Shown one piece after another: positions 3,805-61,650 of a DNA stretch of 64,000 nucleotides. A program made the position numbers and the translations under genes. The notes under the pieces are model-generated. The model made no database searches and was not told where the DNA came from. It saw only the letters and a program-made list of their open reading frames with translations. Each line of letters starts with the position of its first letter. The stretch's first letter is position 1. The DNA is from Candidatus Korarchaeum sp. (GTDB lineage Archaea; Korarchaeota; Korarchaeia; Korarchaeales; Korarchaeaceae), in the NCBI GenBank assembly GCA_020833055.1, contig JAJHQZ010000004.1:1-64000 (forward strand). The letters are read 5' to 3'.

Positions 3805-3926
3805 AGGCGAAGTCCCTCATCGCCTTTTATAAGAATTGATTGCGTTGAAATCCGCAGATTCCCCAATCCTCTCAGTATAGAGTATCAGCCTTTTTAATTC
3901 CCATTGCCTTGAGTCGAGGTGATGAG

Positions 3927-4736
3927 TTGCTTAAAGCCATAATGCTCATACTCATCCTGCAGCTCCACGCCCCCTCCCAGGCTTCTGATCTCTCCTTCAG
4001 AGGGGCTAATATCGCCCTCTGGGGATTCGATTATGATTGGCTCGAGTCCACCCTCCGGAAGCTGAGGGAGATAGGGTTCGATAGCGTCCTCCTGACCGTA
4101 TACCTCAAAATGGATTCCCCTAATTCGAGTTACGTCAGGAGGTTCGAGTACACGCCGGAGGATGACGAGATAAGGCTCGCTATCTCTAAGGCGAGGGAAA
4201 TGGGGTTCAAGGTCCTCCTGAGGGTAGCTATCTACCTCGACTCTGGATGGGGAGGGGATGTGATGCCAGAGGATATGGGCTCCTGGCTCGAGAGCTACAA
4301 ATCTTACCTCATCCGCTACTCCAGGCTTGGAGCTGACGGCTTCATCTTAGGGGCTGAGCTCTGCTCCATAGATAAGAGGGAGGAATTCAGAGAACTCGTG
4401 AAGGAGATAAGGAGGAATTACAGCGGAATCCTCGGTTACTCGGCCAACTGGGGGTCTGAGGAGACTTCCTTCTGGGACCTGCTCGATTTCATAGGGATAG
4501 ATGCTTACTATCCAGTGGGGGACTGGGACAGGATTCACGCAGAGCGCATAGAGCCCCTCCTCAAATACGGGAAGCCGATAATATTCACGGAGATCGGTTA
4601 TAGAAGCATAAAAAATGCTCATGAGAGACCATGGGATTGGAAAATTAAATCTGAGGTGGATTACGGTGAGCAGGCCCGCCTATGGAGCCTTTTCTTGGAG
4701 GTAGAGGCTCCCAGGATATCGGGCTTCTTCCACTAG
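3927..4736 (+). CDS. Secreted GH113-like glycoside hydrolase, ends at in-frame TAG
   Basis: The N-terminus is a hydrophobic signal peptide (about 20 residues to QAS), followed by a TIM-barrel domain resembling GH113 endo-mannanase-like enzymes. Likely catalytic residues are the Glu in LGAEL (acid/base) and the Glu in IFTEIGY (nucleophile). TTG 3927 is chosen because GAGGTGAT lies three bases upstream, the same spacing as at the NAD(P)HX repair gene; TTG 3909 and ATG 3942 are in frame. The frame stops at TAG 4734-4736 just after GFFH, before the last barrel strand is finished. The same frame continues open to 5231 (next entry). Activity is inferred from fold only. Confidence 0.72.
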   Translation: MLKAIMLILILQLHAPSQASDLSFRGANIALWGFDYDWLESTLRKLREIGFDSVLLTVYLKMDSPNSSYVRRFEYTPEDDEIRLAISKAREMGFKVLLRVAIYLDSGWGGDVMPEDMGSWLESYKSYLIRYSRLGADGFILGAELCSIDKREEFRELVKEIRRNYSGILGYSANWGSEETSFWDLLDFIGIDAYYPVGDWDRIHAERIEPLLKYGKPIIFTEIGYRSIKNAHERPWDWKIKSEVDYGEQARLWSLFLEVEAPRISGFFH

Positions 4737-5231
4737 GCTGAGGCCCCCTGGGGGGATGATGGGACCGGCTACTCCATAATTGGAAAGCCAGCTGAGGGTG
4801 TGATGAGGAGGGGTCTCATGAAGCTGCTCCTATCATCGAATCCAGCTTACTGCGTGGCATCTGAAGTGGATGAGAGGTCGCTTAGGGAAGCGCAGCCGGG
4901 AGCCGAGGTGGGGGAGGATTGCAGGATAATAGTGGGTGGGCCCCTCGCCAACCCGAGGAGCAGGATCTACGAGGCCAACTTCGGGAGGGATGAGCTCAGG
5001 ATAAATCGGAGCGTTTACAGGAGCGTATGGGGGAAGTTGGATTATGCCCTCCTGACCTTCAGGGAGGGGAGGATTTACCTCATGGGGGTGCACAGGTTCG
5101 GGACCAAGGCTGCGATAATGTGGCTCTCTAAAGGGCTTCACTTCACCTCAGCTGTAATAAGGTGGAGGGACCTCAACGGGGACGGGGACGTCGAGATGGA
5201 GGAGATAGATGTTATCTACGTGAGGGCGTGA
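4737..5231 (+). pseudogene. In-frame continuation past TAG: barrel end plus S-layer-like domain
   Basis: In the same frame as the glycosidase, and directly after its TAG, the sequence reads AEAPWGDDGTGYSIIGKPAE, the normal C-terminal end of a GH113-like barrel. A further 140 or so residues follow, with IIVGGPLANPRS, a pattern common in archaeal surface-layer proteins, and an EF-hand-like DLNGDGDVEMEEI. The tract is open for 164 codons with no decay. A separate start at ATG 4800 or 4803 is possible but would cut inside the joined protein. Three readings fit: a Trp codon (TGG) mutated to TAG, a sequencing error, or readthrough. Confidence 0.6.
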
Positions 5232-24583: not shown

Positions 24584-25036
24584 CCTCTCACCCGGTGATC
24601 TGCCAACGCAGTGATATAACAGTTCCCATTTCCTTCGATGGGCTCCGAACTTAATGAGAGGAACGCTAGTTTTTATATAAAAAGTCTATCGATCGCTCCA
24701 ATCATGCATTCCGAGTATCGCTTGCTTCAGCCATAATCTCCCATTCAGCATCTTTCCGTGCTGGATACAGTACCGTTGTCGGGTAGTTAACCGTTGTCGG
24801 GTAGTTAACATTTACTACCCGTTCCATCTCGGATAGCACTGCTGCTATCCTCATTGATGGCTTTCAGGGGCAACGGGGCTCCCCTCATCCTGTGTATATG
24901 CCCATTCGGTGCTACGTACCACCACATATCGGGCACGAAATGCGAGATCTCTCAATTTATAAATTTATCGTGTAGGTATATCCAGATAAGGTTATATAAA
25001 GTTAACTTTCTGGAAACTGCTGAGGAACCCTTCTCC
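24584..25036. other. Intergenic region with repeat-rich regulatory element
   Basis: It holds the upstream side of the serpin gene, including a TATA-like GTTATATCA on the minus strand at about 24611-24619, and the repeats at 24773-24820. A second TATA-like TTATATAAAG lies near 24990-25000 on the plus strand with no clear gene behind it. No gene is seen. Confidence 0.5.
24773..24820. repeat. 18-bp tandem repeat plus inverted half-site
   Basis: CCGTTGTCGGGTAGTTAA occurs at 24773-24790 and again, unchanged, at 24791-24808. The second copy's GGGTAGT (24799-24805) is mirrored by ACTACCC at 24814-24820, eight bases away. So there are three copies of a CGGGTAGT-like core, two direct and one inverted. 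Confidence 0.85.
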
Positions 25037-26035
25037 TCACCGGCTCAGATACCTTTTGACCCAGCCCTCCGCATGGAGATATGCTATCGCTAGGACAGGT
25101 TGGATCATCGGTATTAGGGCAGGCGCTAGGGCTGATTGAGGGCCTAGAGCTGATACAGCAATCGCAGCCGCGACGCTCTGGTTCTTGGTTATCGATATGA
25201 GAGATATAGCTTGGTGATCCTCGTAAGATATTCTGAGGAGCTTGCTGATGAGCAAGGATACCAGCAGCAGAGCCGCTATGACTAGCGATTGGTAGAGGAT
25301 TATAGATATAGCTGTGGCTGGATTCGCGATTATCCTCATCGCTTGATTGAGTACGAGCACGAAGACGAGGGCTAGCATCGATAGCATCGTTGCCAAGGAA
25401 AGGTGGGGCCTGATCGTCTTCTCAACGTAGGGCAGGCCTCTGCTCCTCGCGATCATATACCTAGTCAGCTGACCCGCGATCAGTGGGAGAATGAGGACCT
25501 CTATTAAGGACATCAAAATGGGGTCCATTGGGACTTGAACGGATACTCTGCTGCTATATAAACTTATAAGGATCGGAATTGCTGGTATCCCTATCAAAAG
25601 GCTTAAGATTGCCAGGACTGTAGCTAGCTCAATGCTTCCTCCTGCTATGAGCACGTAACCGAGGGAAGCGCTCGATGCCGGGACCACGTTAGCTGCGACA
25701 TAACCCACTCCTATATGAGGATCTCCCAGGCTCGGGGCTATGAGGAACGCTAGGAGTGGAGAGATTACGAAGACATAGAGAATCGAGAGCACTATCTGCT
25801 TAAATTGTCTAGCACTTTTAAGGAGTCCTTCGGTCTTGAGCTGTATCATAGATGGATAGATCGTCAATATCGCTAGGAATATCACGAGATTCGAGATCAG
25901 AGCCTTGTTTAGGGCTATGGCCTCCTTGAAGTAATATCCGATCGGTAGAGCGAGCAGAGTGGAGAGTATCGTATATACTATGAGGTACTTCCTGACGTGG
26001 TTCGATAAGCTCACTACACTCCTCTTGGGTTCCAT
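25037..26035 (-). CDS. BASS/ACR3-family membrane transporter
   Basis: A 332-residue protein with about ten membrane segments of the bile acid:sodium symporter superfamily. LTIYPSMIQLKTEGLLKSA and the discontinuous helix motif ITKNQSVAAAIAVSALGP resemble both BASS and ACR3 arsenite carriers; VVPASSASLGYVLIAGG is the first crossover helix. The Cys typical of ACR3 arsenite carriers is not evident, so an organic-anion role is as likely. The gene has no operon partner. Confidence 0.8.
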   Translation of the reverse strand: MEPKRSVVSLSNHVRKYLIVYTILSTLLALPIGYYFKEAIALNKALISNLVIFLAILTIYPSMIQLKTEGLLKSARQFKQIVLSILYVFVISPLLAFLIAPSLGDPHIGVGYVAANVVPASSASLGYVLIAGGSIELATVLAILSLLIGIPAIPILISLYSSRVSVQVPMDPILMSLIEVLILPLIAGQLTRYMIARSRGLPYVEKTIRPHLSLATMLSMLALVFVLVLNQAMRIIANPATAISIILYQSLVIAALLLVSLLISKLLRISYEDHQAISLISITKNQSVAAAIAVSALGPQSALAPALIPMIQPVLAIAYLHAEGWVKRYLSR

Positions 26036-26202
26036 AGTGAGCTCAGTGAAGATTTCTTATATAAAGGTTGTAGTACAGAAGCACATCTTTTGTTACAATT
26101 TGATACCTAGGATCGATCCGACTTCAGTCCATGCTCGGAGTTCTTCAGCGATTCCCCACCTTGGTAAGAGCGCTCCCGAGTATCTGACCTTTAGCTTGAG
26201 CT

Positions 26203-26514
26203 CTACTGCCTATCAGCCCTCTTGACGATCTTAGCTAGTTCTAGAGACGCTTCATCTAGGAATTCTATGAAGCCAGCTTCATCGTACATAATAAGGTCCA
26301 TTTTCTCTCTTATCAGATCCCTGAGCTTCAGAAGATCCTCATTAGCTAGCCCCTCCTCTTCCATTATGTCTATGAGCCTGGAAGCTGCATCTATGAGCCT
26401 CAAGGATCCGTAGAGCTCCGGCTCATCTACGCATCCTTTAGCGCTACTTATCAGGAAGGAGAGGAGTTTGAAGTGCGGATCCTCAATCAATTTCCTACTG
26501 GAATCCGTCAACAT
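26203..26514 (-). CDS. DUF6092-like helical protein
   Basis: A 103-residue all-helical protein. LLSFLISSAKGCVDEPELYGSLRLIDAASRLI matches what I recall of DUF6092. It starts inside the nitroreductase gene (20-base overlap), so they form an operon. The function of the family is unknown; perhaps an accessory to the nitroreductase. Confidence 0.65.
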   Translation of the reverse strand: MLTDSSRKLIEDPHFKLLSFLISSAKGCVDEPELYGSLRLIDAASRLIDIMEEEGLANEDLLKLRDLIREKMDLIMYDEAGFIEFLDEASLELAKIVKRADRQ

Positions 26515-27049
26515 GCACCACCTCCTCCAGGGGCCTCCTCTTAGGGGGTTTCGGCATCTCCTTGGGATAGCCGAGCGTTACCATTAGCATCGGCTCTATA
26601 TGAGGGGGGATGTTGAGTAGCTCCCTCAGAGCAGCTTTATTGAAGGATACTACTGGGCATGAGCCTATCCCCAAAGCATAGGCCATTAACATCATATTCT
26701 GAGCTGCCATAGAGATATCCATAACTGGCATGAGTTCCGAAAGCTTTCCAGCTCTCTCGGATATCTTCCTGTTTATGCATATAATTACTACAGCCGCGGG
26801 CCTGCCGAAGAGCCCGGGGGAGAAGAGCTTTACCCTCTCCAATAACTCCCTATCCTTAATCAGGATGAACTCCCAGGGTTGCATATTACTTCCACTCGGA
26901 GCCCAAATCCCAGCTTCTAATATGATCCTCAAATGCTCATCTGGTATCTCCTTAATATCGAAGTCTCTGATGCTCCTCCTACCCTTGATAACCTCGAAAA
27001 CTGTCGCAGCCCTATCAGGCAACTCCATAGAGACCCTAGAAGGTCTCAT
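26495..27049 (-). CDS. Nitroreductase-family FMN oxidoreductase
   Basis: A 184-residue nitroreductase. FEVIKGRRSIRDFD (FMN phosphate contact), GIWAPSGSNMQPWEFILI, and the later YALGIGSCPVVSF and VTLGYP are family landmarks. These enzymes use NAD(P)H and FMN to reduce nitro groups, quinones or flavin-like substrates. First gene of a two-gene unit. Confidence 0.9.
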   Translation of the reverse strand: MRPSRVSMELPDRAATVFEVIKGRRSIRDFDIKEIPDEHLRIILEAGIWAPSGSNMQPWEFILIKDRELLERVKLFSPGLFGRPAAVVIICINRKISERAGKLSELMPVMDISMAAQNMMLMAYALGIGSCPVVSFNKAALRELLNIPPHIEPMLMVTLGYPKEMPKPPKRRPLEEVVHVDGFQ

Positions 27050-27151
27050 GCATTAAGATAAAAGAGTTACTGAGCTCACCCAAGATTTAGGGCCCCTGAG
27101 AGCATAACTCGAGCTCCGAGTCGAATGTTCTCAACTAAAATAGAATGGAAT

Positions 27152-28198
27152 TCAGCCATATCTCAACTCCTTCGCGAGATCTACTAGCTCGGGGTGTACG
27201 AACTCCCCATCCTCTATTATCTTCTCCCCATCCCCTATCACTGTCGGAGAGAGGCATATCCCATCTGTGTGGGATGAAGCCCGGCCGAGCTTACCCTTGA
27301 ACGTAGGGGACTGGTATCCTATCCCCCACTCCACGGCACCCCAAACCCTCTCATCCTCCAATATGTTCCCAGTGAGCTTAGCTCCGGGATTGCAACCGTA
27401 GGATAAGTGAGCTATCCTGAGCATATTCGGATCTCTGAAAGACTTGAGCCAAGCTTCGAAGACCCTGGCCTCGCTACCCCCCTCCACTTTGACTATAGCC
27501 CCATCCCTAACGTGCAGCTTTATGGGATTCCTGAGGAGTCCTAGCTCGGATGGGGGCCATACGGATCCATCGAATACTATGGATCCATTTATGCTATCCT
27601 CTACTGGGGCCCAATCAACCTGACCGAAGAGCATGTACTCCCCGGGCCCTTCTACCTCCCCTTCCACGAGCACGGGCCTCTCCCTATCATTCTCAAATTC
27701 TACATCAGTTCCAGCTGGTGTTTTTATCCTCATGTGCCTCGATCTCTCCGTTATCCTGGCTAACCTCCTCTGGAACTCGTAGAGGAGCGGGACTTTCACC
27801 CTCCCTATAGTCCTAGTGGCCATATCAGTATCCATCCCAACGAGGCAGATGTAACGAACCTTACCGGTGCTCATCGCACTCTCATAAGGTGTCGAATAGA
27901 GCAACCAGGATTTATTGAACTCGATCCAGACATCCGACTCACTCAAAAGGGCCTTCAAGGCTTTCAGGGGTATGTGAGGATCTGCTGCCTTCCCCACACC
28001 TGGAGGGGACATGTACCACGCTACTATGGGCTTCGCGTTCAGTTGGGCGGCTGCTTGAGCGGTAGCTTCGGCGACCCTCCAGTCACTGCCAGTATCGACA
28101 GTTATGACTACCTCCTCCCCCTCCCTCACTTTCATAATGTCCCTAACGAGCTTCAGAGCTGCTACAGCTAGCTCTAGATCCAAGCCCATGGGGCACAT
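27152..28198 (-). CDS. M29 aminopeptidase/NicX-like metalloenzyme
   Basis: About 348 residues, resembling aminopeptidase T (M29) and the related ring-opening dioxygenase NicX (2,5-dihydroxypyridine). Metal-binding regions appear as EVEGPGEYMLFGQV, HLSYGCNPGAKLTGN, and RASSHTDGICLSPTV. ATG 28198 is chosen because GGAGGTGAT, which contains the stop of the racemase gene, lies four bases upstream. Operon context (DUF917, racemase) suggests work on a small cyclic or modified amino acid and not general peptides. Confidence 0.75.
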   Translation of the reverse strand: MCPMGLDLELAVAALKLVRDIMKVREGEEVVITVDTGSDWRVAEATAQAAAQLNAKPIVAWYMSPPGVGKAADPHIPLKALKALLSESDVWIEFNKSWLLYSTPYESAMSTGKVRYICLVGMDTDMATRTIGRVKVPLLYEFQRRLARITERSRHMRIKTPAGTDVEFENDRERPVLVEGEVEGPGEYMLFGQVDWAPVEDSINGSIVFDGSVWPPSELGLLRNPIKLHVRDGAIVKVEGGSEARVFEAWLKSFRDPNMLRIAHLSYGCNPGAKLTGNILEDERVWGAVEWGIGYQSPTFKGKLGRASSHTDGICLSPTVIGDGEKIIEDGEFVHPELVDLAKELRYG

Positions 28199-60579: not shown

Positions 60580-61302
60580 ATGAGCGTTGATATAATAGAG
60601 AACGCCCCTGAGGTTAGGAACCCCATACTCATACTCTCCGTCCCCGGAGCCGGTTTAGTTGGGACTATCTCAGCCGATCACATAATAAGGACAGCCGGCC
60701 TCGAGGAAGTCGGGAAGATAGATTCCCCTATATTCCCGCCTGTCGTAGAAGTCAAGGAGGGAGTGGCATCGCATACGATCAAGATATACAGTGGGAAGGG
60801 CCTCTACATAGTCAAGGTAGAGGTCCCCCTGCCCGTGGAACCCCTCCTCAGGATGACAGAAGCAGTCCTAGATTGGGTAGCTAAGAAGAGGCCGAGGCTC
60901 GTCATGGTGATAGGAGGTATACCCGATGAGAACAGGATGAACATAGAGAGGCCGCAAGTCATGATAGTATTCAGCAGTGAGGAAGCTAAAGCTGCTGCGA
61001 ACAACATAGGCGGGGAGTTGATGAAAGGCGGTTATTTATCAGGTTACGCTGCTTACTTCCTCAGGGAGGCTATAAGGAGGGGGGTACCAGCTGCTGCAGT
61101 CATGGTACAGAGCTTCGATGCTTATCCAGATCCAGGAGCTGCTGCAGAGCTCCTGAAAGCTATAGAGCCTGCATTGGGTTTCAGTATAGATACAACTCAA
61201 CTTAAGGCTGAATCTGAGACAATAAGGCTCAAGATGAAGGAATTGATGGCTAAGACCCTCCAGACAGTCAGAGAGACGCCTACGACTGCTTACATAGGTT
61301 AG
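60580..61302 (+). CDS. PAC2-family proteasome assembly chaperone-like protein
   Basis: A 240-residue PAC2 protein. LILSVPGAGLVGTISADHII at the start, VMVIGGIPDENRMN, SGYAAYFLREAIRRGVPAAA and FDAYPDPGAAAELLKAIE match PAC2. Archaeal PbaA/PbaB proteins help fold or assemble the proteasome. TTAAAG at about 60545 may be its promoter. Confidence 0.9.
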   Translation: MSVDIIENAPEVRNPILILSVPGAGLVGTISADHIIRTAGLEEVGKIDSPIFPPVVEVKEGVASHTIKIYSGKGLYIVKVEVPLPVEPLLRMTEAVLDWVAKKRPRLVMVIGGIPDENRMNIERPQVMIVFSSEEAKAAANNIGGELMKGGYLSGYAAYFLREAIRRGVPAAAVMVQSFDAYPDPGAAAELLKAIEPALGFSIDTTQLKAESETIRLKMKELMAKTLQTVRETPTTAYIG

Positions 61303-61314
61303 GGGGGTGATGCG

Positions 61315-61650
61315 ATGGGTTGGTTCTATAGGGAGGTGAGGTGGGGTTACTTCGCCGTTAGGGATGTTGAGGAACCCCTCTACGATGTGAGGCTCACTAA
61401 GGATGGTGTAGTCATAACAGTCGACCTCCCCGGCGTCAGGAAGGAGGACTTAGTACTCAACGCGAGCGAGGAAGCTATATACGTGGAGGCCATCTCTTAT
61501 ATAGGCGGGGCTAGGGTCAAGTACAAGAAGCTGATAAGGACGCCCATACAAATAGATCCCGAGAGGGTAGAGGCTAGACTGAGCAATGGGATCCTCTACA
61601 TATGGGCCCCGCCCAAGGAAGTCGCTTTCAGGAGGGTGAGGGTGGAGTGA
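61315..61650 (+). CDS. Small heat-shock protein (Hsp20-like)
   Basis: A 111-residue alpha-crystallin-domain protein. EEPLYDVRLTKDGVVITVDL, DLPGVRKEDLVLNASEEA and ARLSNGILYIWAPP (the A-x-x-x-n-G-I/V-L motif) are present. The usual C-terminal IxI motif is not clear. GGGGTGAT lies three bases before the ATG, 12 bases after the PAC2 gene, so the two are one unit. It overlaps the ligase gene by four bases. Confidence 0.88.
   Translation: MGWFYREVRWGYFAVRDVEEPLYDVRLTKDGVVITVDLPGVRKEDLVLNASEEAIYVEAISYIGGARVKYKKLIRTPIQIDPERVEARLSNGILYIWAPPKEVAFRRVRVE

Follow-up and report, generated by a model that had tools for sequence, protein, structure and literature searches.

How should an amber codon be read that interrupts a predicted archaeal glycosidase inside its catalytic barrel, with a long open frame directly behind it? 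The question is raised by a gene in the window, the 64,000-nt stretch of a Candidatus Korarchaeum genome analysed here. An in-frame TAG at 4734-4736 (+) closes an ORF of 275 aa with a TTG start (3909-4736), and the 164 codons downstream of it are open in the same frame up to a TGA at 5229-5231, just as the initial annotation of this DNA had described. Counted along the longest ORF, the TAG is residue 276, rather than residue 270 as given there. The locus is laid out as follows:

3909-4733, + strand: barrel part before the stop, encoding an N-terminus that resembles a signal peptide and the greater part of a (beta/alpha)8 barrel of GH113 type
4734-4736, + strand: in-frame TAG where Trp276 (TGG) would end barrel strand beta-8
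4737-4838, + strand: barrel end past the stop (residues 277-310), with the beta-8/alpha-8 loop and helix alpha-8
4839-5231, + strand: C-terminal module with a VGGP..NP segment, an RFGT motif and an EF-hand-like loop, ending in the TGA at 5229-5231

The first part of the gene matches the curated Pfam GH113 profile PF22612 over residues 46-265 (E=7.4e-39, 134 bits, cut-off 27), and this match lengthens to residue 276 once the TAG is counted as a residue. Solved GH113 endo-mannanases in the PDB align with the upstream part at E about 1e-28. When the TAG is again taken as a residue, homology to the GH113 mannanases is unbroken to about residue 300, which places the stop within the catalytic barrel rather than at a boundary between domains; the profile match and this continuous homology bear out the earlier placement of the TAG within a GH113-type barrel. 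Both members of the putative catalytic Glu pair, E150 and E228, are conserved and encoded before the stop, so that a curated profile match, the Glu pair and a match to the barrel fold all point to membership of GH113. The sequence is best explained as encoding a mannanase-like GH113 enzyme that is predicted to be secreted and carries a C-terminal module. Judging from the sequence around the start, translation is more likely to begin at TTG 3927, behind an GAGGTGAT that is common to this genome and its nearest relative (G010, below), than at TTG 3909 of the longest ORF.

The tail beyond the barrel, at about residues 310-440, is a module that recurs at the C-termini of many other proteins in the genus and family, and we found it at over 100 places in 25 genomes of the archaeal family. 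Its copies share an ending, R[FY]GT..A and then an EF-hand-like D.NG.G.V...E, which lies 1-7 residues from the stop codons. Such a recurrent module with a common ending is expected of real coding sequence and not of a chance open frame. Among the curated Pfam and NCBIfam families searched with the module, none reaches its cut-off. It is plausible that the tail serves as a putative surface-anchoring module, and the segment at 4839-5228, widespread as it is in the archaeal family, is possibly a module for attachment to the cell surface.

The history of the codon can be read from its relatives. The nearest of these, G010, is a genome of the same genus in one contig that is 99% complete. Its copy of the gene is syntenic, with a LysE gene, the GH113 gene and then conserved downstream genes shared between the two genomes, and is 98% identical in DNA over the gene. 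At the site of the stop G010 has TGG in an uninterrupted frame (CACTGGGCTGAG, compared with CACTAGGCTGAG in the window). Tryptophan stands in this column in 6/6 family homologues aligned. It is likewise present in 74/74 GH113 loci whose alignment covers the column, out of 80 broader loci taken from a profile scan of named genomes, none recognisably of this genus. The earlier suggestion that related enzymes have Trp here, and that TGG to TAG is the change involved, thus holds. The TAG is confined to this genome, and no relative read carries a stop at the site. Every relative that has the tail encodes barrel and tail in one fused gene, the opposite of the two separate genes for which a comparison with related genomes had been proposed. 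Because the G010 gene is uninterrupted and Trp is present in all readable homologues, the fusion of barrel and tail is ancestral, the frame having been open in close relatives, and the TAG is a private and recent G-to-A change. A scan of named genomes with a single sequence only found no relatives, and a search of viral contigs with a DNA pattern covering both alleles (TGG/TAG) found nothing.

The two genomes also differ in other respects around this gene. Between LysE and GH113, G010 carries a stretch of ~2.4 kb whose open frame of 576 codons encodes a multi-pass membrane protein that by eye resembles an APC transporter; this stretch is flanked by short similar stretches in G010 and is absent here (window 3880-3930). 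The start region of the GH113 gene differs as well, with TTG here and ATG in G010. Near the window edge, positions 1-712 hold a CRISPR array with 11 copies of the repeat GTCTCGATGAAAAGAGGATTGAAAG at a spacing of 61-64 nt, and in G010 array-like matches lie about 10-20 kb from its GH113 gene. G010 has a single 345-codon ORF where, at 25030-27335 of the window, an SBF-type transporter gene and a nitroreductase gene are found inside the corresponding sequence; the difference reflects an insertion in this genome or, alternatively, a fusion by deletion in G010. Among the GH113 homologues, an additional domain of ~250 residues with a YYGYPS... motif precedes the barrel at the N-terminus of L005, L006 and L007 (in G005, G012 and G018); this domain is missing in this genome and in G010.

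How long has the stop been there? Between this genome and G010 the barrel differs by 7 synonymous and 5 nonsynonymous changes (dN/dS 0.19) and the tail by 6 synonymous and 5 nonsynonymous changes (dN/dS 0.24), and comparison of the tail with G010 revealed neither a second stop nor a frameshift. The tail has thus been constrained like the barrel for nearly all of the time since the lineages split, which makes the stop recent; an intact, conserved tail without further decay would be equally expected if full-length protein were still made. The enzyme gene is accessory, and since only 4 of 16 genomes in the genus have it, the organisms evidently tolerate its loss. We consider it very likely that a recent nonsense mutation, TGG to TAG, has struck an accessory secreted GH113-like gene in a genome that keeps to the standard code.

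An error of consensus or assembly, such that the organism has TGG and an intact gene, is in our view unlikely. Only a single base is at issue, in a genome of 25 contigs, and the relative G010 has TGG at the site. Against this, no other comparable gene in the 64 kb contains a mid-gene stop and a single shift was seen, near the end of one small ORF, from which we conclude that the consensus is clean. In addition, ~2% of the bases of the gene differ from G010, a proportion well beyond the usual consensus error rate, which makes it much more probable that any one difference is genuine. When the 64-kb window is set against G010, the GH113 gene alone has a mid-gene stop among 36 G010 genes (at least 150 aa, matched in the window), a frequency that indicates neither poor consensus quality nor widespread suppression.

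Functional readthrough, in which UAG would at some rate be decoded by a near-cognate tRNA, tRNA-Trp for example, or with insertion of some other residue, giving some full-length protein alongside the short form, could explain why the tail is intact and conserved, and interrupted archaeal glycosidase genes can indeed be expressed by recoding, for example the Saccharolobus solfataricus alpha-L-fucosidase (PMC8211752). It is nevertheless improbable here. The stop is private to this genome and is not conserved among relatives; the short form would lack parts of the barrel; and, according to a review (PMC8211752), selenocysteine and pyrrolysine are the only demonstrated cases of stop readthrough in archaea. 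We looked for a suppressor tRNA, PylS and an RNA structure, and found none of them. The 100 nt past the stop fold no better than their shuffles (z=0.31), which offers no sign of a stimulatory structure, and an Rfam search of the window gave no match. None of the 45 tRNAs of the genome (Rfam matches) has the anticodon CUA, and tRNA-Trp has CCA. With its default settings ARAGORN overlooked three tRNAs that contain introns and assigned no amino acid to a fourth; with introns allowed, these four appear as Met(CAT), Tyr(GTA), Trp(CCA) and a tRNA labelled Gly(CCC). Read by hand, the last of these is Ile(TAT), since its anticodon stem is then fully paired. The proposal that readthrough yields both a short soluble enzyme and an anchored form therefore finds no support in decoding machinery, in a shared stop or in RNA structure. 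Also improbable is a low-level rescue of full-length, putatively surface-anchored enzyme by a sense tRNA that leakily decodes UAG; if true, this would be a mode undocumented in archaea outside selenocysteine and pyrrolysine.

Pyrrolysine, or a genome-wide reassignment of TAG, would also predict an open frame following an in-frame TAG, but the rest of the genome makes this exceedingly improbable. The PylS profile had no hit above its cut-off in this genome (G000) and 16 relatives, the best scores being 18-20 bits against a cut-off of 178 bits. A tRNA-Pyl of aberrant form might slip past the Rfam tRNA model; a CUA-anticodon tRNA and PylS are both absent, however. TAG is moreover the normal terminator of eight other genes in the window, namely the CPBP gene (1820-1822), already pointed out in the initial annotation, and seven that are conserved in G010, and in most of the TAG-ended genes checked the next stop is 0-33 codons further on. 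The sole other long open frame behind a TAG follows the PAC2 gene (60580-61302), which is one of these seven. At 60580-61650 a PAC2-family gene and an HSP20-like gene lie in the same frame, with only the TAG and a short RBS-containing gap between them, an arrangement conserved in G010. Readthrough is rejected for this pair, since G010 shares the TAG and the HSP20-like gene has its own start behind GGGGGGTG. It shows the pattern of two real genes, which the GH113 case does not.

Could the tail of the GH113 gene have become such a second gene, re-initiated internally and acting as a separate protein? An SD-like AGGAGGGG does lie a few bases upstream of an ATG at 4818. In G010, however, those bases are ordinary codons of the fused gene, a tail translated from there would lack an obvious signal peptide, and the two parts are separate in no relative, so that a split gene is highly improbable. 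A change of the genetic code, internal re-initiation and an RNA readthrough element were thus all considered and rejected. With regard to the three readings offered at the outset, the fresh mutation is well supported, readthrough is unsupported and an error is the less likely account.

The predicted structure suggests what the nonsense mutation would do to the protein. Strand beta-8 comprises residues 272-276, with Trp276 at its end, and helix alpha-8 comprises residues 294-310, encoded past the stop. The closest solved structures to the model are the GH113 mannanases 5YLI and 4CD7 (TMt 0.81-0.82); the tail region has pLDDT below 50, and we restrict the fold claim to the barrel. A 275-residue product keeps the putative catalytic Glu150 and Glu228 and loses the end of beta-8, the conserved Trp and helix 8. 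Lacking the Trp and the helix, the short form is unlikely to be a working 'short soluble enzyme'; on the model it is very probably unfolded or inactive, and activity would be lost. In the mechanism that we propose, one G-to-A change has turned the TGG of Trp276 into TAG. Ribosomes would terminate there, and the released product of ~270 residues would be missing helix 8 and the tail as well as the invariant Trp276 and the last part of strand 8.

An ordinary loss of the gene, and a very recent one, is thus most likely, rather than any special reading of the stop. The gene is best read as a young pseudogene, in which the stop would be fixed in the population, or as a nonsense allele for which the sampled population is still polymorphic. 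It should be annotated as an interrupted GH113-type enzyme, and neither as two genes nor as a recoded gene. Beyond annotation the case has little significance; for expressing an archaeal mannanase-like enzyme with an unclassified C-terminal module, the intact G010 gene is the better choice.

Three known systems help to place this locus. The GH113 endo-beta-1,4-mannanases (AaManA, 3CIV/4CD6/4CD7; 5YLH/5YLI; BaMan113A, 7DV7) resemble the encoded enzyme in sequence (E about 1e-28), in predicted fold (TMt about 0.8), in the putative catalytic Glu pair and in the Trp that ends beta-8. In contrast to them, the gene here is interrupted by TAG at that very Trp and has an extra C-terminal module, and its mannanase activity is putative. 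The fucA1 alpha-L-fucosidase of Saccharolobus solfataricus, expressed by -1 frameshifting with an efficiency of about 5% in E. coli (PMC8211752), is likewise an archaeal glycoside hydrolase with an interrupted ORF; it is, however, a proven -1 programmed frameshift with a slippery site and a stem-loop (PMC8211752), whereas here we see an in-frame stop of single-base origin with no stimulatory element. The closest parallel is provided by young prokaryotic nonsense pseudogenes, which show the same single-base stop in an accessory gene, an intact copy in the nearest relative and no further decay, and from which we found no difference.
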